The notes beneath the pieces were generated by a model, which saw nothing but the letters and a program-made list of their open reading frames with translations, was not told the origin of the DNA and ran no database searches. Below, piece by piece: positions 45,351-60,371 of a stretch of DNA of 64,000 nt. Every line of letters starts with the position of its first letter. Position 1 is the stretch's first letter. The DNA lies in contig CAMYLR010000024.1 in the NCBI GenBank assembly GCA_947259315.1, positions 61,226-125,225 on the forward strand, written 5' to 3'. Both the position numbers and the translations under genes were made by a program. Source of the DNA: an uncultured Gemmatimonadales bacterium. Its GTDB lineage: Bacteria; Gemmatimonadota; Gemmatimonadetes; JACCXV01; JAHWKZ01.

Positions 45351-48209
45351 ATGCGGAGGCTTAGCCGCGACCGGCTGATCTACGCCGGTCTGACATTCCT
45401 GGTCATCTTTGTGTCGTACATCTGGACGCTGGCGCCCACGCTCACCTTCTGGGATGCGGGCGAGTTCATCACCACGTCTTACATCCTCGGCATCCCGCAC
45501 CCGCCAGGCACTCCACTGTTTGTGTTGCTGGGCCACGTGTTTGGACTCCTGCCGCTGGGGCTCGCTTACGCCGTCAAGTTGAACCTCATGAGCGCGTTGG
45601 CTTCTTCGGTCGGAGGTTTTTTCTACTTCCTCGTGTTGGCGCAAGTCGTGGGTCGTATCGATCGGCGGTTCGAATGGCGGCTGCCGGCGTCGGTTATCAA
45701 CGTGGCCGCAGCGGCGGCGGTGCTGCTATCGGCGTGGGGATTGACTGTGTGGTACAACTCGACCGAAACCGAGGTCTACACGGTAGCGCTGATGACGATC
45801 GCCTTGGTGACGTTCCTGGTCTTCTACTGGGCGGATCACTTGGCCGAGGGCAAGGACTGGAACTTGCTCTTGCTGGTCGTTTTCCTGATGGGTCTGTCGG
45901 TCGGCAATCACTTGATGGCGCTGTTGGTCATGCCGGCTGTAGTTGTGTTCGTCGTTCTGACCGTTTGGGACACGCAGCGCGAATACGTGCTGAGCCTGTT
46001 GGTGGGCGCACTGGGCCTTTACCTGGTCGTCATGCGGGGCTTGTCGGTGGACGGCATTTTGGCCGGTGAGTCGGTGATCAACCCGGGTATGATGCTGGTC
46101 GGGTTGGTGGTTCTTGGGGCTGGCATCTACTGGATGCTCAAGACCGGGGCGCTGACTTTCTTTGTCGCTGCGATCGCGTGCTTTGCCGCTGGGGCCTCGG
46201 TGATCTTCTATCTGAAGATTCGCGCCGGGCTCGATCCGGCGATCAACGAGGCCAATCCCGAAACGTGGCAAGAATTGCTCGCGGTTCTGGCCCGGCGACA
46301 GTACGAGTTGCGACCGATCTTTCCGCGGTCGGTCGATTTCTTGCGCTACCAGATCCCACTCTACTTCGACTACCTGTTTGGCCGGATCGGACCATTTGAG
46401 TCTCGCGTGCCGGGCCAGTTTGGTCACCCAGCGCTGTCGATTCTGACGTTCGGCCTGGCGATCGTCGGTTCCGCCTACCATTTCATCGCCGACCGCAAGA
46501 CGTGGGTCTTCTTCCTGGGTGTCTATCTGACGACTTCGTTGGGGTTGATCGTATACCTGAACTTCCCGCTCGGGAACAGCCAGGCGTTGGATCTGACAGG
46601 GGTCATGCGCGAGGTCCGCGAGCGCGACTACTTCTTCGTCGTCTCGTACGTGTTCCTGGCGCTCTGGGCGGGAGTGGGGCTCTTCTCGCTGGCCGGCGAA
46701 GCGTGGCGACGTGCACGGCGACCGGCGTTTGGTGGTTTCGAAATCGTATTGGCAACCGTTGTGCTTTTGCTGCTTCCAGCCATCGTATTTGCGCTCAACT
46801 ACCACCAGAGCGATCGCCGCGGCAACACGATCCCACGCGATTTCGCCTACAACGTCCTGCAATCGGTAGAGCCGTGGGCGATCCTGTTCACCAACGGCGA
46901 CAACGACACGTTCCCGCTCTGGTACTTGCAGGAGGTCGAAGGCGTCCGGCGTGACGTGTCGGTCGTCAACCTGGCGCTGATGAACACCCATTGGTACTTG
47001 CGTCAACTGAGCGAGAAGGTGTTCACCGCCGGTGATACGCCTGCCGGCGCGGACGACGTCATGCTGGTCGAGCACGGAGTGGCGATGGGTCCGAGGCCGG
47101 ACGACGAGCTGATCGACTACACCGGCGGTCGGGAGGACCCCTTGGCGCGTATCGGGTTCGTCCTCGACGAGGAGACGAGCCTCGATGTGGCGGGGATCGA
47201 AGTCAATCTGCCAGCCAACTCGATCTTGCGGCGCCAGGACATCGGCGTGCTGCAGGTGATTCGCAAGAACCTCGGCCGGCGGCCGATCTACTTCTCGGTG
47301 ACCGTACCCGACGACGGGAAGGTGAACCTGTTTGACAATCTGCTACGGGAGGGGATCGTCGACCGTGTACGTGAAACGCGCGCTTCTGATCTCGCCCGGA
47401 GCGGTGAGCGCGTCGTGCCGATGCAACCACCGGAGCGGTCTTGGATAAACGTGCCAAGAACCGAGCTGCTGCTGGACAGCGTGTACCGCTACGAGGGGAT
47501 CGAAGACCCAGACATCTATAAGGACGCGACCGCGCGCGCGCTGATCGGGAACTACGGGGCTACGTTTTTGCAGCTCGCCGCGGCTCAGGCCCGGCAGGGT
47601 GACACCGAGTCGGCGATACCATCGCTCAGCCGTGGACACTCGATCCTGGGCCGCGATACGGATCACGATGCGTATCTGACCAGCCTGCTGAACGTCTTCG
47701 CGGTGAGCGGCTCATATGCGCAAATCGACAGCCTGCTACAAGACGCTGAGGATCGTCGCGGCGGGCGACTCGACGATCGGTACTACAAGACCGCTGCCTA
47801 CAACGCGGCCGTGGTCGGCCACTACGAAGTCGCGGACCGGTTGCTCGAGAAGTACTTCCGCGAGGATCCGACCGCGGTTGAGCCCGAGCTCTGGATCGAC
47901 ATGGCCGAAATGGCGATCGCCGCGGCCGACACCGAGCAGGGGATGAAGCTCCTCACGCGTGCGATCCGGGTCGACGCCAACAACCGTCGCGCGTTCCTTC
48001 GCTACATCAATTTGGCTGACGCGATCGGGAATGACGTCCTGACCAAGACGTTCCTTTATCAGTGGGTACGGACCCATCCCGCAGACACCTCCACCGGTCG
48101 TATGTACGAAGAGTTTCTGGAAAACGGCGATTTCCCGGAAGAGCTGCGGTGGGAGAGCGTAGTGCGGGCGCCATCGGCTGCGGTTGACACCGCTCCGAGG
48201 GGCGAATAG
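45351..48209 (+). CDS. DUF2723 membrane protein with C-terminal TPR region
   Basis: 952 aa. N-terminal half has about ten or more membrane helices with the DUF2723 signature near the start (FWDAGEFITTSYILGIPHPPG, quoted by its core DAGEFITTSYILG and HPPGTP). A large extracytoplasmic part contains FTNGDNDTFPLWYLQEVEG, a family hallmark. The C-terminal 250 residues are TPR-like. The topology resembles GT-C glycosyltransferases, so protein O-glycosylation is a reasonable guess but unproven. Good ribosome site GGAGGGA. The 132-nt gap before it contains a short CGACGGC direct repeat and no gene. Confidence 0.85.
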   Translation: MRRLSRDRLIYAGLTFLVIFVSYIWTLAPTLTFWDAGEFITTSYILGIPHPPGTPLFVLLGHVFGLLPLGLAYAVKLNLMSALASSVGGFFYFLVLAQVVGRIDRRFEWRLPASVINVAAAAAVLLSAWGLTVWYNSTETEVYTVALMTIALVTFLVFYWADHLAEGKDWNLLLLVVFLMGLSVGNHLMALLVMPAVVVFVVLTVWDTQREYVLSLLVGALGLYLVVMRGLSVDGILAGESVINPGMMLVGLVVLGAGIYWMLKTGALTFFVAAIACFAAGASVIFYLKIRAGLDPAINEANPETWQELLAVLARRQYELRPIFPRSVDFLRYQIPLYFDYLFGRIGPFESRVPGQFGHPALSILTFGLAIVGSAYHFIADRKTWVFFLGVYLTTSLGLIVYLNFPLGNSQALDLTGVMREVRERDYFFVVSYVFLALWAGVGLFSLAGEAWRRARRPAFGGFEIVLATVVLLLLPAIVFALNYHQSDRRGNTIPRDFAYNVLQSVEPWAILFTNGDNDTFPLWYLQEVEGVRRDVSVVNLALMNTHWYLRQLSEKVFTAGDTPAGADDVMLVEHGVAMGPRPDDELIDYTGGREDPLARIGFVLDEETSLDVAGIEVNLPANSILRRQDIGVLQVIRKNLGRRPIYFSVTVPDDGKVNLFDNLLREGIVDRVRETRASDLARSGERVVPMQPPERSWINVPRTELLLDSVYRYEGIEDPDIYKDATARALIGNYGATFLQLAAAQARQGDTESAIPSLSRGHSILGRDTDHDAYLTSLLNVFAVSGSYAQIDSLLQDAEDRRGGRLDDRYYKTAAYNAAVVGHYEVADRLLEKYFREDPTAVEPELWIDMAEMAIAAADTEQGMKLLTRAIRVDANNRRAFLRYINLADAIGNDVLTKTFLYQWVRTHPADTSTGRMYEEFLENGDFPEELRWESVVRAPSAAVDTAPRGE

Positions 48210-48212
48210 ACT
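48184..48212 (+). promoter_or_regulatory. Promoter of the exbB-exbD-tonB operon
   Basis: TTGACA at 48184-48189, 17 bp, TAGACT at 48207-48212, lying over the last codons and stop of the DUF2723 gene. Leader of about 43 nt. Confidence 0.75.
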
Positions 48213-48261
48213 CGCCGCGAGTCGATTCCGCTCCCCCTTCCTCACCCCTCGAGGAGGCCGC

Positions 48262-48918
48262 GTGACCTTACTTCAGATGTTCCGAGACGGCGGCTTGTTC
48301 ATGTACCCGCTGCTGCTCTGCTCAATCCTCGGGTTGGCCGTCATCCTGGTCAAGTTCGTAACCCTTCGCTTGGCCAAGATCCAAACCGGTCGACTGCTGG
48401 ATCGGGTCCACGCGATGGTCCGCAGCGGTCGCGTCGATCAAGCCATGGAGTTGTGCGCCAACACGCGCGGGCCGGTGGCGTCGATCGTGTTGACCGGCCT
48501 CCACCTGTACGCGGAGCGGAGCTCGACCCGAGCCGAGCAGGCGATCACGCATGCCGGTCGAATCGAGATGGCGTTCCTCGAAAAAGGGCTGGTGGTTCTG
48601 GCGACGATCTCCAACGTCGCCCCGCTGATCGGCTTCCTGGGCACGGTAGCGGGAATGATCATGGCTTTTGGAGCGATTGAATCGGCAGGCGAGGTAGAGG
48701 CGACGCTGGTCGCGGGCGGCATAAAGGTCGCGCTCATCACGACGGCCACCGGGTTGGCGATCGCGATCCCGGTGAACATCGCTCACAACTGGTTTGTATC
48801 TCAGATAGACGATCTGATCGTCGACATGCGACAAGGCGTGCAGTCGATCCAAGACATGCTGTGGGCTGGCGACAATCAACCGGTATCAAGCGGACCTCCC
48901 GCTGGTGGACCGCGGTAG
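48262..48918 (+). CDS. exbB: MotA/TolQ/ExbB proton channel family protein
   Basis: 218 aa, three membrane helices: N-terminal YPLLLCSILGLAVILVKFV, and two in the C-terminal proton-channel domain (VAPLIGFLGTVAGMIMAFGAI and ALITTATGLAIAIPVNIAHNW, each shown by core residues). The GTG at 48262 is preceded by GAGGAGG; the longer frame starting at the TTG of 48184 begins inside the promoter. With ExbD it forms the proton-driven motor that energises TonB. ExbB is favoured over TolQ because tonB follows. Confidence 0.93.
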   Translation: MTLLQMFRDGGLFMYPLLLCSILGLAVILVKFVTLRLAKIQTGRLLDRVHAMVRSGRVDQAMELCANTRGPVASIVLTGLHLYAERSSTRAEQAITHAGRIEMAFLEKGLVVLATISNVAPLIGFLGTVAGMIMAFGAIESAGEVEATLVAGGIKVALITTATGLAIAIPVNIAHNWFVSQIDDLIVDMRQGVQSIQDMLWAGDNQPVSSGPPAGGPR

Positions 48919-48951
48919 ATTCGACTACAATTTTGACGAGGTGAAACGAAG

Positions 48952-49398
48952 ATGGCGGTGAGACAAAAGGGGTTCGACAAGAAGCACAAGGCGAGCAGCG
49001 AGATCCCCTCTTCGTCGATGGCCGACATCGCCTTCCTGTTGCTCATCTTCTTCATGGTCTCGACCACTTTCCGCTCCGAGCAGCCGCGGGACGTCACCAT
49101 GCCCGAGGCGACGGCGCAGGAGAAGATCCCCGAAAAGCGGAAAGACATCCAAAACCTGTTCATCGAACAGAGCGGTGCGGTGTATATAAACGATCAGAAC
49201 GTGCCCGTGTCCCAGATCTCGGACGTGATCGCCCCGATCCGACTCGAGCGTGTACGGCTGGTCGTTTCGATCCGCGGTGACGTCGACGTGGCCTACGATC
49301 TGGTCAACGATGTGCAGGAGGAGCTAAGGGACGCCGGTGCGGTGAGGGTGAACTTCACGACCAACCTCGAACGCGAGACCTCGAGGCGGGGTAGATAG
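48952..49398 (+). CDS. exbD: Biopolymer transporter ExbD
   Basis: 148-aa protein with one membrane helix: SSSMADIAFLLLIFFMVSTTF contains the essential aspartate (Asp25, in MADIAF). A periplasmic domain (about 60-140) follows. Partner of ExbB in the proton channel. Ribosome site GAGGTGA before the ATG, 33 nt after exbB. Confidence 0.94.
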   Translation: MAVRQKGFDKKHKASSEIPSSSMADIAFLLLIFFMVSTTFRSEQPRDVTMPEATAQEKIPEKRKDIQNLFIEQSGAVYINDQNVPVSQISDVIAPIRLERVRLVVSIRGDVDVAYDLVNDVQEELRDAGAVRVNFTTNLERETSRRGR

Positions 49399-49420
49399 GT
49401 CAAAAGGAGGAAACGAGCGG

Positions 49421-50095
49421 ATGAACGAACCCCAAGCCAAGCCAGCCGCAAGCACCACGTACTCGACCGCGAATTCACGGCTGCACAGCGCCTACGGCCG
49501 GTATTTCAAGGCGTTTGCGATCGCCGCGACGGTCATCCACGGGATTATGATCTTCTTCTTCGTAGCACCCCGTGGGGCTGGCTTCGAGGCTCGGGCCGAG
49601 GAGATGGAGGTCATCGACATCCCACCCGAGATCAAGATCCCCCCGCCGCCTGAGGAGATCGCTCGCCCGGCTACGCCGGTGATCTCGGAGGAGCCGATCG
49701 AGGAGGATATCACGATCGCCGAGACCGACATCGTCGAGGATCAAGAGGTCCCCGAGGCGCCGCCCCCACCGTCTGACGATGTGGGCAACACGTTCACGTT
49801 CACGCCTTACACGGTCAAGCCGAAGTGCACGACGAACTGCACCGCCAAGGACATCCTGCGCCACGTGCCGCCGCTGCTTCAGAAGAGCGGCGTCCAGTGC
49901 AGCTTGGCGGTCGGCCTCCGGATCGATACCGGCGGCAAAGTGACCGCCACTCAGATCTTGAAGTCGAGCGGCAACCAGGGGTGCGATTCGGCGACCGAGA
50001 AGTGGGCCAAAACCACCAAGTGGTCGACAGCCTACAATCGCGATCAACCGGTCGTCGTCTGGATCAGCCAGCCGGTGAGCATCGAGACGAAGTAA
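49421..50095 (+). CDS. tonB: Energy transducer TonB
   Basis: 224 aa: one N-terminal helix (AFAIAATVIHGIMIFFFV), a periplasmic proline/glutamate-rich spacer (IPPEIKIPPPPEEIARP), and a C-terminal domain with VGLRIDTGGKVTATQILKSSG of TonB type, its core being RIDTGGKVTA. Four cysteines in the C-terminal half (KCTTNC, VQCS, GC) are unusual for TonB. Strong ribosome site AAAGGAGG. It couples the inner-membrane motor to the receptor that follows. Terminator 24 nt downstream. Confidence 0.92.
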   Translation: MNEPQAKPAASTTYSTANSRLHSAYGRYFKAFAIAATVIHGIMIFFFVAPRGAGFEARAEEMEVIDIPPEIKIPPPPEEIARPATPVISEEPIEEDITIAETDIVEDQEVPEAPPPPSDDVGNTFTFTPYTVKPKCTTNCTAKDILRHVPPLLQKSGVQCSLAVGLRIDTGGKVTATQILKSSGNQGCDSATEKWAKTTKWSTAYNRDQPVVVWISQPVSIETK

Positions 50096-50118
50096 CTTCG
50101 ATCTACCTGGTGAGATGA

Positions 50119-50152
50119 AGGGCTCCCACCGATCAGGTGGGGGCCCTTTTTG
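50119..50152 (+). terminator. Intrinsic terminator after tonB
   Basis: AGGGCTCCCACC / GGTGGGGGCCCT stem of 12 bp (one T-G), loop GATCA, then TTTTTGT. Confidence 0.88.
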
Positions 50153-50227
50153 TGCTCGATAGCGCTGTAATGTATTCAAATATCTTCATATACGGCAGAG
50201 AGCGGTCGAAACGTCTGATGCAATCGG

Positions 50228-50256
50228 TTGACAGCACCATTGACCGCCTCTATACT
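50228..50256 (+). promoter_or_regulatory. Promoter of the TonB-dependent receptor
   Basis: TTGACA at 50228-50233, 17 bp, TATACT at 50251-50256 (6 and 5 of 6 consensus positions). Confidence 0.8.
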
Positions 50257-50262
50257 CACTTA

Positions 50263-50488
50263 CTGGAACGCTGCTCCAGCCACAGCGTCCCCCCTGTGAA
50301 CCCCGAAATAAGGAGGGCGTTTCGGACGAACTTTCGTTTGCTTTTCATGGCGCTTTACGCGCCCCTCAACGATTCCAGCCACACACTGGGGAAACCTCGC
50401 GACCAAGCGACGATGTATTCGTACGCCGTGGACGCGAGCTAGCTCCCGTGCGTTTTGATTCTGTAGTGACTCGAACGGAGGGTACTCA
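50263..50488 (+). promoter_or_regulatory. Long 5' leader of the TonB receptor mRNA
   Basis: About 226 nt between the predicted transcription start and the receptor ATG, within the 393-nt gap after tonB. It holds a possible 5-bp hairpin (GGCGC...GCGCC near 50348) and the ribosome site CGGAGGG just before the ATG. I cannot match it to a known riboswitch. An open frame of 101 codons crossing the terminator and promoter is not a credible gene. Confidence 0.5.
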
Positions 50489-53400
50489 ATGAGGCAGCCT
50501 GGTGAGTTTAGAACGTTCGCTAGGTGGTCGTCCCTCGTCGTGGGCGTGTCGTTCCTGCTGCTGTTAAGCGGCGGGGCAGCATTTGCTCAGGTGACGGGAA
50601 AGGTGATCGGAACGGTCACCGATGGCGATACGGGGCAGCCGTTGGTCGGCGCCCAAATCGTCGTCGAAGGGACGAACCTGGGGAACGTGTCCAACGAGGA
50701 CGGCTACTACTTCATCAACAACATCGCGGTCGGCGTGCAGTCGCTGACGGCCCAGTACCTGGGCTATCAGACGACGACCAACGAGCAGCGGATCTTGGCC
50801 GGTCAGACGATGACCGTCGACTTCCGCCTATCGAGCGAGATCGTCCAAGCCGATCAAGCGATCGTGGCGGTGATCGAGCGCGAGCCGTTGGTGGCCCGTG
50901 ACAACACCGTGTCGAAGACGCGGTTTACGTCGGAGGATGCGCAGAACCTGCCGATCGGCAACGTCGATCAGCTGGTGACATTGTCGGCCGGGATCTACCG
51001 CAGCGGCACGACCCAGGACGGCAACGGGTTCGTGATCCGCGGCGGTCGCGCATCCGAGTCGGCGACGTTCATCGACGGTGTCCTGATCACCGACTTTGGC
51101 ACACAGTCCAACTCGACCGAGATCAATACGTTCGCGATCGAAGAGGTGGACGTGATCACGGGCGGGTTCTCGGCCGAGTTCGGCCACGCGCAGTCGGGTG
51201 TCGTGAACATCGTGACGCGCGAAGGCGCACGCGATTTCAGCGGCAACGTTCGGTTTACCACCGACGGCGAGCTGAGCACCGATGGCTACAGCTTCGAGGA
51301 GATCGAGCGCGCGGCAACGACGGCGGGCATTCCTGAGCCACAGGATTGCTGCGGCTACAATCAGATCACGGGGTCGCTGGGTGGTCCCATCGTCCCCGAC
51401 CGTTTGACCGCGTTTGGCTCGATGGAGATAACCGGTGCGGCCAACTTCTTCCCGAACATCGCCGGCTTCAACCCGGCGGCGGGCGGTTTCAACTCGAGCG
51501 GTTCCACAGAGACGATCCTTCCCGGTGACCGCGGTAGCGACACGCGGGTGCAAGCAAAGATGACGGCGTTCCTGCCGTCGAACGCGAAGCTGACGGGTAC
51601 GTATCTGTTCAACCGCGAGCAGCGCGAGAACTTTCACGACCTGTCGAGCTCGGGCGTCGCGCTCGGTTTGAACCAGAACCTGAGCTGGTTGGGGACGCGG
51701 CGGAAGACCCACGACATCATCGTCGGTTACGACCAGCAGATCTTCCAGACGGCGGAGAAGAGCCTGAACCTCCAGGTTCGGGGGAACTTCCACCAGTCGA
51801 AGTTTGTCCTTGGCACGCCGCTGAACGCCCAGACGGCACAGATCCTGTTGGATGACCCGGACTTTGGCGCCGAAGTCTGCGCCGAGTTCGGCAACGCGTG
51901 TGAGCGTGCGCTCGACGTCGTGGACTCGTTCGATCCCGACTTCTTGAACTGGAAGTGGGACGACGTGGAGTTCTTCTTCGAGGACTTCATGACCGCGGCT
52001 TCGATCCCGAACATCCCGACGGTTCGCACGAGCGATCCGGACGCGGTGTTTGGTGTGCCGCAGATCTTTGGCAACACCGGCTTCGGGAACGTGTTCCGGC
52101 GTCGCAACGAGCGGCGTTACGGTATCCGCGTGGATGTGGACAGCCAGCTCAACCGTGTCCACCGGATCAAGGTTGGCGGCGAGTTCAACTGGATCAACTA
52201 CGACGACCACTCGTCGCAGTTCACCAGCGGTCAGTTCGCCGACGAGGCGATCGTGGACCCGCGGATCGCGGCGTTCTACGCTCAGGATCGGTTGGATTAC
52301 GGCGACCTTGTGATCGACCTGGGTCTCCGTGTCGATCACTGGGATCCGAACGCGATGATCCCGCTGTTGCCAGGTGTCGTACCATGCGAAATCTCGGCGT
52401 TTGAACAGTGCACCGAGGATGCGGTGGCGGTCGAGGGCGTGACCCACACCGAGGTCTCGCCGCGGTTGGGCGTGGCGCACCCGATCACCGACGACACGCA
52501 GGTGCGTTTGTCGTACGGTGTGTTCCATCAGCTCCCGCAGCTTAGGCACTACTTCTCGAGCGTATTCACGGACTTCGTGGCCGCTCAGCAGAACCCGAAC
52601 ATCACGTACGGCAACCCGAACCTCGACTTCGTCTCGACGACGGCGTTCGAGGCCGGTATCACACACCTGTTGAGCGACAACATGGTGCTCGACATCGTGG
52701 GTTATAACCGTGACCGTCGCGGTGCCGTGCGTCTCGATGTATTCCAGACGAACGACATCTTCGAGGGCGTGTTGGAGCGTCGCGTGTACTTGAACGCGGA
52801 CAACGGGAACGTGAAGGGTTTGGACATCACGGTCCAGAAGCGTTACTCGGACTACTGGTCGACGAACGTTGCGTGGTCGCTGCAGTGGGCCCGTGGTACG
52901 ACGTCGTCACCGACGGAGTTCGCGACGGGTGGCGGTCTGGGTCGTCTGTTCGACCCGCTGTTCCCGGGCAGGCTGCTGGTGCCGCCCTCGGAGCTTCAGA
53001 ACGAGACGTTCGACCGTCTGCACACGATCAACTGGACGTGGACGTTGCGCTTCCCGGAGGACTTCAAGGAGGGCACGCCTGCGGGCCAGATCTTGAACAA
53101 TCTCGGCGTGTTCCTGGTGTACAACGCGCACTCGGGTGAGCCGTTCACGCGGCGCTCGACCGAGGGCCAGGGCGAGGCGCTGGAGGACATCAACGCCAGC
53201 CGCCTGCCATGGGTGCACCAGGCCGACATCCGGTTCACCAAGGCGTTCGCGCTGGGTTCCGGAATGGATCTGGAGCTGTTCGCTGGTATCCTGAACTTCC
53301 TGGATATCGAGAACGTTCTCGAGATAAACGAGAGCTCGGGTCTGCCGAACGTCACCGGTTTTGAGGACCAGATTTCCGCGACGCCGCTGATCCCGGTCAG

Positions 53401-53662
53401 CGACCGTACGGACGGGAGCGGTCCGCAGGACTTCCCGATCGCGATCTCCGATCTGGTTGAAGAGTTCCAGGACGAGTATGCGCTCCAGGACTTCAACCGC
53501 GACGGCTCGATCTCGTTCGACGAGGCGCAGCAGGCGCTTCGGAACGCGAAGCAGGCGTCGGGTGACGGGGCGGACTTCATCGTCGGCAGCAACACCGGCG
53601 ACTCGCCGCTCAATTACGGCACCCCGCGTCGGTACCGTTTTGGTGTTGAGTTCCGTTTCTAA
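50489..53662 (+). CDS. TonB-dependent outer-membrane receptor with carboxypeptidase-like N domain and EF-hand
   Basis: 1057 aa. Signal peptide ending AAFAQ; CarboxypepD_reg-like domain (about 36-115); plug domain (about 130-240, with GFVIRGGRASESATFIDG and EEVDVITGGFSAEFGHAQSG, cores VIRGGR and FSAEFGHAQSGVVN); then a 22-strand-type barrel ending in FGVEFRF with the terminal aromatic typical of outer-membrane insertion. An EF-hand loop lies at residues 1001-1012. It resembles SusC/Oar-like receptors but has no SusD beside it. The upstream exbB-exbD-tonB operon would power it. Substrate unknown. Confidence 0.9.
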   Translation: MRQPGEFRTFARWSSLVVGVSFLLLLSGGAAFAQVTGKVIGTVTDGDTGQPLVGAQIVVEGTNLGNVSNEDGYYFINNIAVGVQSLTAQYLGYQTTTNEQRILAGQTMTVDFRLSSEIVQADQAIVAVIEREPLVARDNTVSKTRFTSEDAQNLPIGNVDQLVTLSAGIYRSGTTQDGNGFVIRGGRASESATFIDGVLITDFGTQSNSTEINTFAIEEVDVITGGFSAEFGHAQSGVVNIVTREGARDFSGNVRFTTDGELSTDGYSFEEIERAATTAGIPEPQDCCGYNQITGSLGGPIVPDRLTAFGSMEITGAANFFPNIAGFNPAAGGFNSSGSTETILPGDRGSDTRVQAKMTAFLPSNAKLTGTYLFNREQRENFHDLSSSGVALGLNQNLSWLGTRRKTHDIIVGYDQQIFQTAEKSLNLQVRGNFHQSKFVLGTPLNAQTAQILLDDPDFGAEVCAEFGNACERALDVVDSFDPDFLNWKWDDVEFFFEDFMTAASIPNIPTVRTSDPDAVFGVPQIFGNTGFGNVFRRRNERRYGIRVDVDSQLNRVHRIKVGGEFNWINYDDHSSQFTSGQFADEAIVDPRIAAFYAQDRLDYGDLVIDLGLRVDHWDPNAMIPLLPGVVPCEISAFEQCTEDAVAVEGVTHTEVSPRLGVAHPITDDTQVRLSYGVFHQLPQLRHYFSSVFTDFVAAQQNPNITYGNPNLDFVSTTAFEAGITHLLSDNMVLDIVGYNRDRRGAVRLDVFQTNDIFEGVLERRVYLNADNGNVKGLDITVQKRYSDYWSTNVAWSLQWARGTTSSPTEFATGGGLGRLFDPLFPGRLLVPPSELQNETFDRLHTINWTWTLRFPEDFKEGTPAGQILNNLGVFLVYNAHSGEPFTRRSTEGQGEALEDINASRLPWVHQADIRFTKAFALGSGMDLELFAGILNFLDIENVLEINESSGLPNVTGFEDQISATPLIPVSDRTDGSGPQDFPIAISDLVEEFQDEYALQDFNRDGSISFDEAQQALRNAKQASGDGADFIVGSNTGDSPLNYGTPRRYRFGVEFRF
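53489..53524 (+). other. EF-hand calcium-binding loop inside the receptor gene
   Basis: Encodes DFNRDGSISFDE: Asp1, Asn3, Asp5, Gly6, Ile8, Glu12, a canonical 12-residue EF-hand loop, followed by a helix-like AQQALRNAKQ. It is located between the last barrel strands, probably in a surface loop. Confidence 0.75.
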
Positions 53663-53677
53663 GCAGCTGCTTAGCTC

Positions 53678-53710
53678 GGTGAGGGGTGCCTTTATGTGGC
53701 GCCCCTCGCC
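53678..53710 (+). other. Stable intergenic hairpin without U tract
   Basis: 13-bp stem (two G-U) GGTGAGGGGTGCC/GGCGCCCCTCGCC with a 7-nt loop, between the receptor stop and the next gene. No T run follows, so it looks more like a processing or stabilising element than a terminator. A short palindrome TAAGCAGCTGCTTA spans the receptor stop. Confidence 0.6.
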
Positions 53711-53734
53711 GGACCAAATCCATCAGGAGGTTGC

Positions 53735-56700
53735 ATGGTGTTAAGAAGGTGGTTTGAGAGCTCGCGGCTGCGGAGCCAGTTTACGGGCTTTACGGCCGCA
53801 GTACTGCTGTTGGCGGTCGCGGTGACGGCCGTCGGCGAGCCGCCCAAGGACCGGCCAAACAACGGCCGGGATCTGACGGGGGCGACTACGCCGACCCTGA
53901 TCACGATCGACCGCAACCGCATGATCTTGATCTTGATTGACACCGGCGATATCGCGTCGGGATCGTCGGTCGGCGGCGGTGGATTTTGGAGGACGACGAC
54001 CGACCAGTACATCTTCTCGTCGGGTCCCAATGTGGGAGCGATTATCCCCGACGGGCAGATCGTGTTCTTCAAGGGTGGTCCGTTTACAGAGACAGGAACG
54101 GGCGGCCCGGTCTTTAGCGGTCAGGGGCTGGACGACTTCTTCGTCAGCACCGACCCCGCCGACGTTGGGAACTTCCCGGAGGTCTGCACAGTGGACTCGT
54201 TCCGGCAAGAACAGTTCCCGTCGCTGGCGTCGTTCGCCGGCGAGCCGTTCCCCGGTTTCGCCGATATCACGGTGTGCACGGCGTCGAACGACATCACGAT
54301 CGGCACGTGCGGGACGTGTGGTGGCTTGCGCGTCGGCGTTGAGATCGTCGAGGTCGCATTCCAGTTCAGCGTTCCGGCGGTGCAGGACTTCACGTTCTTC
54401 ATCTTCCGGGTGTTTAACCGCACGGAGTTCCTGAACGCCGGGAACTCGCCACTACAGCCGGCCGGTCCCTACGACCTGCAGGATGTGTCGGTGGCGTACG
54501 CGATCGATCCCGACCTCGGCGAGGCCGGCGATGACCAGATCGCGTTCTTCCCTGGCGTCCAGACGATGACGTGGTGGGACTCCGACTTCAGCGAGCCACA
54601 GTTCCAGAACCCGCCCGGCATCGGCGGCGTCACGTACCTGAAGACTCCGGTCGATCCGGCGACGGGCGAAGAGGTCGGTCTGGCGGAGTTCACCGTGTTC
54701 ACGAACGGGAACCCGCGCCCCGACCCGTCGGATAAGGAGACGTGGTACGCGCTGATGATCGGCGACCCGTCAGAGGTCGTGCTGGAAGTCGATCCGCGTG
54801 ACATCCGCGGCATGGCGTCTTCGGCTCTGTTCCCGCTGCCGGCGGGGGAGTTCGTGGAGATCTACGCCGCGATCTTCTACGCCGACATCTCGGGTTCGCC
54901 GCCAGCGCAGCTGTTGGCCGAAGCTTACAAGAACCTGGCCACCGGCGAGCTGGTCCCGGACGCCAACGACGACCCGATCTTCGACAACTTCCGGTTGGTG
55001 CAGCAGACGGCCCAGGCGACGTTTGACGCCGGGTTCGTGGTGCCGACGGCACCGCCCAAGCCGGATGTGACGCTCATACCCGGCGACGGGCAAGTCGCAG
55101 TGGTCTGGGAGCCCAGCCCTGTCGAGAGCGTGAACCCGTTCGCGAAGGTAGCCCGCGATCCGTTCTCTCGGCTGGGTGACGGTACGCCCGACCCGGATGC
55201 GCCCGGGCTGGGGATTATCCTGGACGCGGAGGACGTGATCTTCGATCCGAGCCGTGATATTGGCGGGACGACTGGATTCGTGGATGCCGCGACCGCCGGT
55301 TTGACCGGCGCCGAGGCGACGAACGCGGCGTTCAACCTCGACTTCCTAATCCAGGACTTCCAGGGGTTCAACGTTTACAGGGCGTTCACCGGCATCGCCG
55401 ATGACGCCGAGCTGATCGCCCAGTTCGACGTCTCCGACGGTATAACGGCGGGGACGTTCTGCACCGGGGCGCAGGCGATCTTCGACGCGGACGCCGAGTT
55501 TGTGACGACCGTCTGCACGGAGACCGCGGATCTGGATATCGGCGGCGACACGGGTCTCAACTTCGCGATCGTCGATCGCGGGGGGAACTTCCCCGATCCG
55601 TCGACCGGTCCGGGGTTGCTCAACGGGATCCCGATCTCGTACGCGGTGACGGCGTTCGCGGTGAACCCGGGGCAGTCCCCGGTGACGTTGCCGACGCAGG
55701 AGGCGCTGGACGTGCTGAACTCCGGCCCGACCCCGGCCGCGCCGCTGGTACTCGAATCCGGTCTGTCGCCGCTAGGGAGCTCGACTCCGCGCTCGAACTC
55801 GAGCGCGTTTATCGACGCGATCCCAGGGACCGTGTCGATCCTCGATGCGGCGGGAACCGCGTTGGTCGGCAACGACGCCAACATGACGCTGGACGAGAAC
55901 AACGTTCCGGCGGCTCCGATCCCGGGCGCGCGAACGATCGACTTGAGCGTCACGGTCGCTAACGCGCTTTTGATCCCGTCCGATTTCGGACAGCTTCAGC
56001 TGCGGATCGACGACGCAGAAGCCCGGATGCACTGTCTGAGCGCACCGGGTGGGTGCTTCAACCTGGACGCCGAGTTTGGCGGCCTCGGCCTTGGCGCAGC
56101 ATTCGACCGGTTGGTCGGCGTCGACGTGCGTGGCCGCGAGGTGGAGTTCCGAATCACGGACGCCTCCGGCACGACGCTCCAGACGCTCGACGGCTCGCCA
56201 GCGGCGGGCTCGTTGTTCACCGACTTCATCTCGTTCAACGGGCTGACGAACTACGAATCGCCGACGTTCGCGATCGTGTTCGCGGACGCACCGGACGAGA
56301 TCGCGTTCACGACGGCGTTCTCATCGTCGGTCGGGAACCGGGCCAACCAGTGCGGACGGCAGAACAGCTGCGGCCTGCTGGATGCGACCCGCTCCGGTCC
56401 GCCGGCTTCGATCGCCGTGGTCGACTTCGAGGTCGGCGCGTACGGTCAGTACCGGTACGGCGACATCGAGCTGGTGTGGAGCAACACGGGTGGTGTGCTG
56501 AGCTTGAGCTCGGTGCGCGACCTCTCGAACGGCGTCGACCTCGCCTTCAGCCCGAAGTTCGGCAACGAGGGTTGGGGCTTCGCCGCTGAGACCGGTCTGG
56601 GGGCCAACGAGGAAGCGGCCGCCGGCTTGATCGGTGCCGTGCCGCGTACGGCCTCGGGCAAGGTCCTCTATCCGGACCCGCTGTTCCAGTTTCTCGGTGG

Positions 56701-57388
56701 CCAGAACTGCAGCTTCGCGGGCGGGATCCAAGGTGCTGCGCACTGGACCGACTTGCAGTCCGATCCGACGATCTTCGACCGGATGATCCTGTCGCCCGGC
56801 TTCCCGCAGTTCCGGGGTGATTTCGGGCAGCCCGATGCGTACCAGCAGAACGCTGCGCTGTTCACCTGTCCGGCAGGTGGCGGCTTCGGCTGCGCCGGTG
56901 CGGCGGGGTTGCAGGGCACCCGGCTGTACGTAGCCGGGACATGGCTCGACATGTCGTTCAACCAGCTGCCGGCCGACGGCGAGACGTGGATCCTCCAGCT
57001 GAGTAGCGCCTCAGCGGGGACCTCTCGTCCGCCGGTCCCAGGGTCGATCGTGAGCATCCCGCTAGCCGGTGGCTCGAACGACCTGGTGAACGCCGATCTG
57101 TCGGAGATCCTGGTGGTCCCGAACCCGTTTATCGCGCAGAACGAGATCACGCGCGGTCGCGGGTTGCAGCGGATCCTGTTCACCCAGATGCCGCCCCAGG
57201 CGACGTTGCGGATCTACACGATCAGCGGCAACCTGGTGCGCGTGCTCGAGCACTCCGACGGTAGCGGAACGTTGGAGTGGGATGTACGCACGCGGTTCGA
57301 TCTGTTTGTGGCGAGTGGGAACTACTACTTCCACGTAACGACGCCGGACGGTCGGACCAGTTTGGGACGTTTTGCGGTTATCAATTAG
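53735..57388 (+). CDS. Large secreted protein with type IX-like C-terminal sorting domain
   Basis: 1217 aa from ATG 53735, preceded by AGGAGG; the earlier in-frame ATG overlaps the intergenic hairpin. N-terminal signal (FTAAVLLLAVAVTAV). The middle holds a fibronectin-III-like segment (IPGDGQVAVVWEPSP ... FQGFNVYRAF). The C-terminal 90 residues (ILVVPNPFIAQNE, LRIYTISGNLVRVLE, VASGNYYFHVTTPDG) match the type A/FlgD-like sorting domain seen in type IX substrates. Enriched in Asp/Gly/Ala with paired cysteines. Function unknown; it occupies the SusD position after the receptor. Confidence 0.8.
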   Translation: MVLRRWFESSRLRSQFTGFTAAVLLLAVAVTAVGEPPKDRPNNGRDLTGATTPTLITIDRNRMILILIDTGDIASGSSVGGGGFWRTTTDQYIFSSGPNVGAIIPDGQIVFFKGGPFTETGTGGPVFSGQGLDDFFVSTDPADVGNFPEVCTVDSFRQEQFPSLASFAGEPFPGFADITVCTASNDITIGTCGTCGGLRVGVEIVEVAFQFSVPAVQDFTFFIFRVFNRTEFLNAGNSPLQPAGPYDLQDVSVAYAIDPDLGEAGDDQIAFFPGVQTMTWWDSDFSEPQFQNPPGIGGVTYLKTPVDPATGEEVGLAEFTVFTNGNPRPDPSDKETWYALMIGDPSEVVLEVDPRDIRGMASSALFPLPAGEFVEIYAAIFYADISGSPPAQLLAEAYKNLATGELVPDANDDPIFDNFRLVQQTAQATFDAGFVVPTAPPKPDVTLIPGDGQVAVVWEPSPVESVNPFAKVARDPFSRLGDGTPDPDAPGLGIILDAEDVIFDPSRDIGGTTGFVDAATAGLTGAEATNAAFNLDFLIQDFQGFNVYRAFTGIADDAELIAQFDVSDGITAGTFCTGAQAIFDADAEFVTTVCTETADLDIGGDTGLNFAIVDRGGNFPDPSTGPGLLNGIPISYAVTAFAVNPGQSPVTLPTQEALDVLNSGPTPAAPLVLESGLSPLGSSTPRSNSSAFIDAIPGTVSILDAAGTALVGNDANMTLDENNVPAAPIPGARTIDLSVTVANALLIPSDFGQLQLRIDDAEARMHCLSAPGGCFNLDAEFGGLGLGAAFDRLVGVDVRGREVEFRITDASGTTLQTLDGSPAAGSLFTDFISFNGLTNYESPTFAIVFADAPDEIAFTTAFSSSVGNRANQCGRQNSCGLLDATRSGPPASIAVVDFEVGAYGQYRYGDIELVWSNTGGVLSLSSVRDLSNGVDLAFSPKFGNEGWGFAAETGLGANEEAAAGLIGAVPRTASGKVLYPDPLFQFLGGQNCSFAGGIQGAAHWTDLQSDPTIFDRMILSPGFPQFRGDFGQPDAYQQNAALFTCPAGGGFGCAGAAGLQGTRLYVAGTWLDMSFNQLPADGETWILQLSSASAGTSRPPVPGSIVSIPLAGGSNDLVNADLSEILVVPNPFIAQNEITRGRGLQRILFTQMPPQATLRIYTISGNLVRVLEHSDGSGTLEWDVRTRFDLFVASGNYYFHVTTPDGRTSLGRFAVIN

Positions 57389-57467
57389 ACGCGGCGCAGA
57401 GGGCGCGGCTCGCCGTAGGGCGGGCCGTCCCTCGACGCAGCCCTTTGACTTTGGAGGTAGTCTGGAC

Positions 57468-58619
57468 ATGAAGAAGCTCTGGAGAAGCGTTGGGCTGGGG
57501 AGCTTCATGGGCGTGCTGCTGCTCGCCGCGTTTACCCCGGTTCGCGCGCAGACGACGGGCGATCTTCCGCCGATCCTGCAGGGTCGGGAGGAAGGGTTCT
57601 CGTTTATCGGGAACGCCGGCGGGGAGTTTTTGACGATCCCCGTGGGGGCTCGCGGCGTGGCGATGGGCCAGGCGTTTACGGCGGTAGTGGACGACGTGAG
57701 CGCATTGTGGTGGAACCCGGCGGGGTTGGGCTTTATGCGCAGCCCGGCGGCGTTCTTTACCAACATCAACATGCCCTTGGACCTACAGTACAACTATGCG
57801 GGCGTAGGTGCGCCGGTGTTTGAAGGCAACGGCGTGATCGGCGCGGCTTTTGGCGTCTTGACGATGAACGAGATGCAAGTGACGACGATCGCACAGCCGA
57901 CGGGCGCGCCCGAGCAGTTTGACAGCTGGAGTTCGTCGACGCAGATGTCGTATGCCCACAACTTGAGCGACCGGTTTACGGCCGGTATGAGCTTCAAGTG
58001 GGTACACGAGAACATCTTTGGTCTGACGTCAGACGCGTTCCAGTTTGACTTTGGTACGAACTACCACACGACGTTTGCGGGTCGTGGCATCCGTCTGGCG
58101 TTCGTGGTTCAGAACATCGGCACGAACTTCAAGAGCGAGGGTTCGCGACTGCAGATCGCGGCCCGTCCGCCGGAGTTCCCCACGTTCCCGAACTCGGGTA
58201 ACCTGGCGTTGGAGTTCAAGACGGAGGACTTCCGACCGCCGACGACGTTGAAGACGGCGCTGGCGTACTACTTGGTGGAGAGCGAGTCGTCGTCGTTCAT
58301 CGTCAACGGCGAGTTCTCGGCTCCGCGTCAGCTACAAACAACGGTGTCTGTGGGTGGTGAGTGGTCGCAGGTGTTGACGCCGGCGAACAACGGCGGCGCA
58401 GTGGCGACGACGGTGTCGGCGCGTGGTGGTTACACGTACCAGCAGGACGAGGAAGAACTGGATTCCAGCCCGAACGACAGCGACACGCTGCGCGGTCTCG
58501 GGTTTGGCGCCGGTCTGCAGTTCGACTTCACGACGTTCGGAGCGGCGTTTGACTACGCGTTCCGCGATTGGGGTCGCCTCGGTGGTACGAACAACTTCAG
58601 CGTCTCGGTGTTGTTCTAG
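57468..58619 (+). CDS. PorV/PorQ-family outer-membrane protein
   Basis: 383 aa from ATG 57468, preceded by TTGGAGG. Signal peptide ending PVRAQ. The family start is clear: FLTIPVGARGVAMGQAFTAV and DDVSALWWNPAGLGFM (core VSALWWNPAGL), followed by FadL-like beta strands to a terminal SVLF. In Bacteroidetes PorV binds and shuttles type IX substrates at the outer membrane. Position directly after a protein with a sorting-type C terminus supports a related job, but no other type IX component (SprA, PorU, PorM) is in the window. Confidence 0.88.
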   Translation: MKKLWRSVGLGSFMGVLLLAAFTPVRAQTTGDLPPILQGREEGFSFIGNAGGEFLTIPVGARGVAMGQAFTAVVDDVSALWWNPAGLGFMRSPAAFFTNINMPLDLQYNYAGVGAPVFEGNGVIGAAFGVLTMNEMQVTTIAQPTGAPEQFDSWSSSTQMSYAHNLSDRFTAGMSFKWVHENIFGLTSDAFQFDFGTNYHTTFAGRGIRLAFVVQNIGTNFKSEGSRLQIAARPPEFPTFPNSGNLALEFKTEDFRPPTTLKTALAYYLVESESSSFIVNGEFSAPRQLQTTVSVGGEWSQVLTPANNGGAVATTVSARGGYTYQQDEEELDSSPNDSDTLRGLGFGAGLQFDFTTFGAAFDYAFRDWGRLGGTNNFSVSVLF

Positions 58620-58663
58620 CGGGCACCCAGCCATCGCTAGGAACAGCTAGAGGGCTGAAAAGA

Positions 58664-58695
58664 AGCGCCCGGGCAAGGACATTTGCCCGGGCGCT
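58664..58695 (+). terminator. Terminator-like hairpin after the PorV-like gene
   Basis: Perfect 13-bp G/C-rich stem AGCGCCCGGGCAA/TTGCCCGGGCGCT, 6-nt loop, followed by CTCTATT. Weak T tract but very stable stem. Confidence 0.65.
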
Positions 58696-58862
58696 CTCTA
58701 TTGGGGACGGTGGCCAGCGCGCGCCCACCCTTGCCGCTTGCGGGCCCGATAACGACATTAAACTCTGAACAATTCCCGTATATTTGACGGAAGGAAGCGA
58801 CGACTCGATTCGTGGGTCGTGATTTGCGCAGCATACTGTCAAACCCCAGGAGAACACCTCGC

Positions 58863-60371
58863 ATGCCGAAGTCTGTCGCCAGCCGACTCTTGATTCCAAT
58901 CGCCGTCATCGCCGGAGGACCGGGTATTGCGGCGGCGCAGGGTCAAGCGAGCTTGGCCCTCGAAGTCAACCGCTATTACGGAGACCATGAACGAGCGCTC
59001 GTAGAGGGCGCCGTAGAGGTGCCGTTCACGCTTATGACCTTTACGTCGGGCGGAGAGAGCCTGCGGGCGAACGCCAAGGTCGAGGTCGAGATCGTGAAGA
59101 AGGGTGGCGAGCAGGTCTATCACACCGAGCGTGATATCCAGCCCGAGGCGGCCAACGAGGCGATGGCGAGGTCGGACCGGGTCTCGACGATCGAGACGTT
59201 CGCGATCTACGCACCACCCGGAGATTATGTCGCCACCGGTCGCATTACCGACCTGACGTCCCAGCAGAGTTACGAGATGACGACCCCGCTGGTGGTCCCC
59301 GCTGAGCGGCCCTTCTTCAGCGATGCTCTGCTCTCGAATCGGGTTCTGAAGAACGTCCAACTCGAGGAGGGCAGCTACCTCCCGTATCTCATCGGCACGA
59401 CGATGTTCAATCCGAACCCGCGACATGTCTTCTACAAAGATTCGCCGCTGCTCTACTTCTACTACGAGATAAACCCCGAAGTAGCGGGTGGCGAGGGAGG
59501 CTCGCACGAGTTGCAGATGCTGGTCCTTGGCGCAGACGGTGAGATCGTCAAGAACCTGGGTGATCGCGCGATCAAGGTCAGCGAAGGCCAGAACTTCGAC
59601 TTGGGCGCGTTCAACATCGCCGGTTTATTGCCGGGTGAGTACGTCCTGGAGGTCCGGTGCTCGACGTGTGAGGCGGGCGAACAGCTCAATGCTGGCTTCG
59701 AGGTACGCGAGCCGCTCGCTCAATTGGCACGCACCCAGCTGTTGGGACGCCCCGCGCCGACGGAACGACCGGCCCCCAAGTACTACGCTGGGTTCACGCC
59801 GGTTCAGGTCGATAGCGTCGCCAAGGCGATGGACGTGTGGTTCTCGAATCAACAGCGGCAGCTCTTCAAGACCCTCAATAACGACGGCAAGATCGAGTTC
59901 CTGAACCGTTTCTGGGCCAGTCTCGACGCCGATCCGTCGATCGGCGACCCGGATACCGAGGAGAACGAGCCAAAGGTCGTGTTCGAACAGCGAATCGCCT
60001 ATGCGGACCAGGTATTCTCGAGCAGCCAGAGGCTCGGCCGGGACACCGACCGTGGCCAGATCTACATCTTGTACGGCGAGCCGACGGAGCGCTTTGACCG
60101 TCCGTACGAGGCGACGGTCGGGCCGTACGAGATCTGGAACTACACGGGTCACGGAGAGACCTTCGCTTTTGGGGATTTCGCACGTGACGGCAGGTACCGC
60201 TTGATCTACTCGACGAACCGCCGGTTTGTCGGTGATCCGAACATCCAGACCCAGGTCGATGGAGGCCAGGCCTCCGTCCGGCAAACGACGATCCCGTTTG
60301 GCCGTGGTTACGAGACGATCATCGAGGACATTCTTCAGAACCGGGTTACTACCCGGAGCTTCCAGCGCTAA
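58863..60371 (+). CDS. GWxTD domain-containing secreted protein
   Basis: 502 aa from ATG 58863 (CAGGAGAA upstream). Signal peptide ending GIAAAQ. Beta-rich middle, then the C-terminal GWxTD-type domain: EFLNRFWASLDADPS, FEQRIAYADQVFSSSQRLG, with the name motif here reading GRDTDRGQIYILYGEP, and YEIWNY. GWxTD domains are found in FCB and Acidobacteria envelope proteins; function unknown. A -10-like TATATT lies at 58779-58784. A second family member is at the right edge. Confidence 0.85.
   Translation: MPKSVASRLLIPIAVIAGGPGIAAAQGQASLALEVNRYYGDHERALVEGAVEVPFTLMTFTSGGESLRANAKVEVEIVKKGGEQVYHTERDIQPEAANEAMARSDRVSTIETFAIYAPPGDYVATGRITDLTSQQSYEMTTPLVVPAERPFFSDALLSNRVLKNVQLEEGSYLPYLIGTTMFNPNPRHVFYKDSPLLYFYYEINPEVAGGEGGSHELQMLVLGADGEIVKNLGDRAIKVSEGQNFDLGAFNIAGLLPGEYVLEVRCSTCEAGEQLNAGFEVREPLAQLARTQLLGRPAPTERPAPKYYAGFTPVQVDSVAKAMDVWFSNQQRQLFKTLNNDGKIEFLNRFWASLDADPSIGDPDTEENEPKVVFEQRIAYADQVFSSSQRLGRDTDRGQIYILYGEPTERFDRPYEATVGPYEIWNYTGHGETFAFGDFARDGRYRLIYSTNRRFVGDPNIQTQVDGGQASVRQTTIPFGRGYETIIEDILQNRVTTRSFQR

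Follow-up and report, generated by a model that had tools for sequence, protein, structure and literature searches.

The window analysed here, a stretch of 64,000 nucleotides from an uncultured Gemmatimonadales bacterium (genome of 2.4 Mb in 33 contigs, 96% complete), carries six neighbouring genes for ExbB, ExbD, TonB, a TonB-dependent receptor (TBDT), a giant secreted protein (P1217) and a PorV-like barrel (Table 1). All six have been recovered with Pfam and NCBIfam on the forward strand, in the families that the initial annotation had given them, and the start of exbB needs to be corrected. For this gene, GTG at 48262, with a GAGGAGG ribosome site ahead of it, is a better start than the earlier proposed 48184, a TTG which belongs to the -35 hexamer TTGACA of a promoter-like site (48184-48212) within the end of the upstream gene.

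Table 1 Features of the locus, in coordinates of the window.
Feature	Position	Strand	Evidence and remarks
TMEM260-like protein O-mannosyltransferase with TPRs	45351-48209		upstream of the motor operon
exbB	48262-48918	+	PF01618, 101 bits; neighbour outside the conserved unit
exbD	48952-49398	+	PF02472, 81 bits; neighbour
tonB	49421-50095	+	PF03544, 34.5 bits; neighbour, plausible energy supplier to the receptor
Putative intrinsic terminator between motor operon and trio	50120-50151	+	GC stem 50120-50146, then TTTTT
Putative sigma-70-like promoter of the trio	50228-50256	+	TTGACA-17-TATACT, 11/12 consensus matches
TonB-dependent receptor, 1057 aa	50489-53662	+	signal peptide, carboxypeptidase-regulatory domain, plug, barrel
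P1217, giant secreted partner, 1217 aa	53735-57388	+	signal peptide, predicted beta-supersandwich, Ig/FnIII-like middle, PorZ-like C-terminal domain
C-terminal sorting-type domain (CTD) of P1217, about residues 1109-1217	57059-57388	+	NF052228 PorZ CTD, E 3.3e-7; Foldseek PorZ 5m11, E 2.9e-6
PorV/PorQ-family barrel of the outer membrane (383 aa), which may tether P1217	57468-58619	+	NF033709, 138.7 bits, cut-off 90
13-bp perfect inverted repeat closing the trio unit	58664-58695	+	short T-poor tail; precedes the GWxTD gene
GWxTD-domain protein	58860-60371	+	TIGR04514, 72.2 bits; beyond the hairpin here

The first three genes had been described as an operon with a promoter and a terminator of its own, which agrees with the GC stem and the run of T after tonB. 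A consensus scan finds 2 promoter-like sites against 1.6 in shuffles, that is, no excess, so these signals are supported only by their position and quality. Given the terminator after tonB, the second promoter-like site and the inverted repeat at the far end, the receptor, P1217 and PorV-like genes (hereafter the trio) are predicted to be a transcription unit of their own, apart from the motor. Two other Gemmatimonadota genomes likewise have the TMEM260-like gene close to the trio, and in Gemmatimonadota the GWxTD gene adjoins the trio at most of the loci that leave room for it.

The TonB motor had been counted as a member of the unit. This assignment has to be given up, because the motor has a separate promoter and terminator and none of the other trios sampled below has a homologue of exbB, exbD or tonB in its vicinity. 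The genome itself contains 13 plug domains and another two exbBD loci, one of which includes a TonB-like gene. The tonB of the window may energise the trio receptor, and it may equally energise the other receptors of the genome.

With Pfam matches to the plug (48.9 bits) and to the barrel (73.3 bits), the receptor qualifies as a TonB-dependent receptor. Its AlphaFold model (pLDDT 79, pTM 0.84) has FecA as the best structural match (Z 39.4, 589 residues aligned, rmsd 3.3), BtuB-BtuG (8blw) is among the top matches (Z 37.1), and no solved relatives have been found by sequence. The initial annotation had framed the protein as a SusC-type receptor that has lost its SusD. However, the SusC/RagA model TIGR04056 gives it 37.8 bits against a cut-off of 368, which rules it out as a SusC and places it outside the SusC family, so that this framing no longer holds. 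The best 50 entries of the model's structural VIA list contain no SusC chain, which is uninformative on the distance to SusC. A single SusD_RagB match (E 5.1e-8) is present in the genome.

By inspection, P1217 has a Sec-type signal peptide and no lipobox. Its body has no Pfam match, either here or in eight FCB relatives, and P1217 has no SusD match in Pfam or NCBIfam; among solved proteins, the PorZ CTD is the only relative found by sequence. The model calculated from a 68-sequence alignment (pLDDT 68.8) is confident at about residues 20-610 and in the CTD, and of low confidence at about residues 680-1060. In this model, residues about 1-408 of the mature protein are predicted to form a beta-supersandwich, which matches GH94 phosphorylases, glucoamylase, glucodextranase and related glycan-active enzymes with Z of 17-19 over 232-264 residues (rmsd 2.9-4.1); the catalytic alpha/alpha barrel of these enzymes is not evident in the model. 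Foldseek also returns the periplasmic domain of YidC, so the supersandwich fold alone does not imply glycan binding. The earlier view that a large secreted protein unrelated to SusD takes the SusD slot agrees with both the missing SusD match and the predicted fold of the N-terminal domain.

The CTD of P1217 matches that of Porphyromonas gingivalis PorZ by sequence profile as well as by fold (5m11), and scores less well with the type A sorting domain models TIGR04183/PF18962 (17.6-20.5 bits, cut-off 23). At the family level, 54 of 56 P1217 relatives match the PorZ model, while 38 match the PorU CTD and 29 match Por_Secre_tail (TIGR04183), which upholds the type IX-like sorting domain proposed for this C-terminus. 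As a control, ten CTD proteins encoded beside trios have been scored in the same way; all ten are above the Por_Secre_tail cut-off, and the six that match PorZ do so more weakly than they match Por_Secre_tail. Judged from these profile scores, the CTD of P1217 is probably nearer to PorZ and PorU than to ordinary T9SS cargo.

The third gene of the trio encodes a protein well described by the PorV/PorQ-family model NF033709 and below the cut-offs of the equivalog models NF033710 and NF033711 (37.8 of 250 and 67.3 of 220 bits, respectively), and the search for solved relatives by sequence gave none that is convincing. In P. gingivalis, PorU is anchored via PorV and PorZ via PorQ (PMC5562754), PorQ being a paralogue of PorV. 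By analogy, a PorZ-like CTD adjoining a dedicated PorV/PorQ-family barrel points to P1217 being tethered rather than released, and the suggestion that the next gene encodes the CTD-binding barrel is plausible on the same two grounds. On contig 6 of the same genome (L050:6099-8815), we have also observed a 553-aa CTD protein akin to the N-terminal region of P1217, immediately followed by a second PorV-family gene; this could be a receptor-free CTD/PorV pair.

In other families of this class, P1217 relatives lie between a TBDT gene and a PorV-like gene. The conservation of the trio has been followed with a scan whose query was an alignment of P1217 relatives alone, blind to the neighbouring genes. 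The scan yielded 79 loci, which according to the titles of the deposited records belong to Gemmatimonadota, Calditrichota, KSB1, Marinimicrobia, Ignavibacteria, Rhodothermaceae/Bacteroidota, WOR-3, Eisenbacteria, Krumholzibacteriota, Latescibacterota and Fermentibacteria, with one record titled Fibrobacter. Flanking genes were called with receptor and PorV-like profiles built from the Gemmatimonadota members. A TBDT gene stands directly upstream of the P1217 relative in 64 of the 68 loci with room for it, and a PorV-like gene directly downstream in 62 of 65; the full trio, in the same order, is present in 52 of the 55 loci with room on both sides. Several exceptions trace to copies in tandem, to contig breaks or to profile hits that are fragmentary, and at two loci (L112 and L151) no PorV-like gene has been detected. 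Overall, the trio occurs across at least ten bacterial phyla, many of them FCB, and a lack of synteny in related genomes, which the initial annotation had named as grounds for rejecting its proposal, is not what we observe.

For 50 trios, we have also compared the three proteins by their pairwise distances. The correlations are 0.95 for receptor and P1217, 0.91 for P1217 and the PorV-like protein, and 0.94 for receptor and PorV-like protein, while 1000 within-phylum shuffles give a mean of about 0.65 and none of them attains the observed values. This shows that the three proteins have been inherited together as a unit; co-divergence speaks for co-inheritance, not for contact. In the literature search, the trio has not been found described as such, and its gene order is given only in a figure legend of PMC9530828. 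The trio is a real, conserved and apparently undescribed three-gene unit.

These data bear on one alternative, namely that P1217 is an ordinary T9SS cargo and that the three are outer-membrane genes linked by nothing more than co-regulation, whose products form no complex. The sorting domain is indeed of a general T9SS type. On the other hand, the fixed gene order and the co-divergence across phyla, the PorZ/PorU leaning of the CTD, and the fact that ordinary type A cargoes have a single PorV in common whereas every trio comes with a barrel of its own, all make this explanation improbable.

The initial annotation had proposed to look for SprA, PorU and PorM elsewhere in the genome, and the first of them alone has been recovered. 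SprA is present in the genome (431 bits over the frame). The search covered 61 genomes of this class, of which 42 have SprA, as do 34 of the 35 trio-bearing genomes from other FCB phyla. For PorU, these 61 genomes, the host genome included, give matches only to the profile positions of about 980-1095, i.e., to its Ig/CTD part; as the host assembly is 96% complete, PorU may still be present there. The same search returns full-length PorU matches above the cut-off in 27 of the 35 other FCB trio genomes, which serves as a positive control, and in those phyla the CTD may be cleaved. GldM/PorM has no match in the 61 relatives and one weak match in the 35 FCB genomes, although a diverged PorM could escape the model; the T9SS motor outside the classical Bacteroidota is thus either absent or unrecognised. 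In most trio genomes there is also another protein, about 1000-1200 aa long, whose match to the SprA profile is confined to positions 600-655 (e.g., G094:C5:71532-71792 and G080:C267:4081-4257).

SprA is relevant to the possibility that the receptor itself exports P1217, in the manner of Oar, and that the PorV-like barrel then catches it. Such a role has a precedent in Myxococcus, where Oar and ExbBD-TonB are required for the secretion of PopC (PMC6434023), and it would fit the carboxypeptidase-regulatory N-terminal domain of the receptor and the motor operon adjoining the trio in this genome. However, CTD proteins are known to be exported by SprA, which the host and nearly all other trio genomes possess, the Flavobacterium johnsoniae structures show type A CTDs docking on PorV inside SprA (PMC10994853), and none of the other sampled trios has a motor operon nearby, which together leave this route with a low probability. 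Lower still is the probability that the trio is a part of the secretion apparatus, i.e., a counterpart of PorZ/PorQ that deals with lipopolysaccharide or cargo attachment in lineages lacking PorU. The PorZ-like CTD and the failure to detect PorU in the 61 genomes of this class would agree with it, but beyond its CTD P1217 shows no sequence similarity to PorZ, trios, sometimes in several copies, also occur in genomes with PorU, and a similarly organised trio belongs to an alginate locus.

This alginate locus, from Rhodothermus marinus, has the genes tonB-hypA-hypB, annotated as a TBDT, a T9SS type A sorting-domain protein and a PorV/PorQ family protein, in that order (PMC9530828). They lie near alginate lyases that have been tested, and the authors left the trio itself unremarked (PMC9530828). 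The likeness to our trio is one of order and annotation; hypA, with 2181 nt, is shorter than the P1217 gene. A homologous trio is found on the plasmid pRMAR01 of R. marinus DSM 4252 (RMAR_RS14120-14110), with E values of 1e-140 for the receptor, 2e-68 for the P1217-type protein and 9e-78 for the PorV-like protein against our profiles. It is preceded by a gene for an FG-GAP protein and followed by one for an amidase_2 protein, an arrangement of five genes that is also seen in three MAGs of Rhodothermaceae/Bacteroidota and in one genome of Marinimicrobia. On the plasmid, the trio (L185) is flanked by two sets of CRISPR-Cas genes, one of type III-A and the other of type I-U.

Other trios have CBM, laminin-G, FG-GAP and amidase proteins with CTDs as neighbours. 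The scanned neighbours in the window (TMEM260-like, ExbBD-TonB, GWxTD and thiE) include no carbohydrate-active gene, and the locus does not classify as a PUL. Considering the alginate locus, the amidase beside the pRMAR01 trio, and the CBM, laminin-G and FG-GAP neighbours elsewhere, different trios may serve different polymers.

The same neighbourhoods have to be weighed for surface attachment, in which P1217 would be an adhesin or a surface-layer component held on the PorV-like barrel, and the receptor would serve sensing or assembly. P1217 is a large, multi-domain, predicted surface protein, the window trio lacks adjoining carbohydrate-active genes, the genome has the second CTD/PorV pair without a receptor, and FG-GAP and laminin-G CTD proteins stand beside trios elsewhere; in addition, SprB/SprF is a precedent for a CTD/barrel pair serving an adhesin (PMC9143113). 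Yet the near-constant linkage to a TBDT over at least ten phyla is hard to square with a plain adhesin, as is a similarly organised trio within an alginate-utilisation locus, and we regard attachment as unlikely, albeit as the best of the alternatives. The initial proposal of a dedicated uptake or surface-attachment unit therefore stays a suggestion in both its halves, of which uptake has been strengthened by the published alginate locus.

Based on the above analyses, the linkage of the trio, its co-divergence, the PorZ-like CTD, the presence of SprA, the predicted supersandwich fold and the alginate locus together favour a unit for nutrient capture at the surface that resembles SusC/SusD in how it works but not in how it is built, a reading to which we assign a probability of roughly 0.55. 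From what is known of the families, Sec would export P1217, and SprA would then serve as its channel across the outer membrane. The product of the neighbouring gene, the cognate PorV-like barrel, would catch the CTD and hold P1217 on the surface, analogously to PorQ-PorZ and PorV-PorU in Porphyromonas. The supersandwich/Ig body might be placed over or beside the receptor, bind an extended polymer (a glycan, possibly fragments of peptidoglycan) and hand it to the receptor, which would import it with TonB energy. P1217 would then stand in for the lipid-anchored SusD as the ligand-binding partner or lid. More tentatively, and with odds somewhat against it, the trio could be a counterpart of SusCD throughout the superphylum, having a SprA-exported capture protein with its own PorV-like barrel and an uncleaved CTD, and Gemmatimonadota could have a reduced type IX route with SprA and without PorU or a recognisable PorM.

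If the capture reading is true, a second architecture of polymer uptake would exist beside SusC/SusD across less studied FCB phyla, and many pairs now annotated as 'hypothetical protein / PorV-PorQ family' would gain a first functional handle. It would also link T9SS surface display to TonB import, two systems that so far have been viewed apart. The idea is testable in a cultured thermophile, R. marinus DSM 4252, which carries the homologous trio.

For Bacteroidota, polymer uptake is usually described by the SusC/SusD model. The trio resembles it in that the gene of a surface partner directly follows that of a TBDT and in the presumed capture and import of a polymer, but its receptor fails the SusC/RagA model, and the partner is a giant beta protein with a CTD, next to which a PorV-like barrel is encoded. 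The BtuB-BtuG pair of Bacteroides thetaiotaomicron (8blw) likewise joins a TBDT to a surface partner other than SusD, but this partner, BtuG, is a vitamin B12 lipoprotein, and the pair involves no CTD or PorV. In Oar/PopC of Myxococcus xanthus (PMC6434023), a TBDT is also paired with a large secreted protein, while there the TBDT is needed for export of the protein, and neither a PorV-like barrel nor a CTD takes part.

Regarding the surface display, the PorU-PorV and PorZ-PorQ pairs of P. gingivalis (PMC5562754) also place a CTD protein on a barrel of the PorV/PorQ family, and the CTD of P1217 is closest to that of PorZ; the differences are the body of P1217, which is unrelated by sequence, the link to a TBDT, and the lineage, in which PorU is undetected. 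The pairs of type B CTD and PorP-SprF in Flavobacterium (PMC12618676, PMC9143113) similarly combine a cargo with a dedicated anchoring barrel, often genetically linked, whereas in the trio the CTD is PorZ/type A-like, the barrel belongs to the PorV/PorQ family, and a receptor is nearly always added. The alginate locus of R. marinus differs in its shorter hypA of 2181 nt (PMC9530828); nevertheless, this locus and the pRMAR01 trio share with our trio the order of a TBDT, a CTD or P1217-type protein and a PorV/PorQ barrel, and the pRMAR01 trio is homologous to it.
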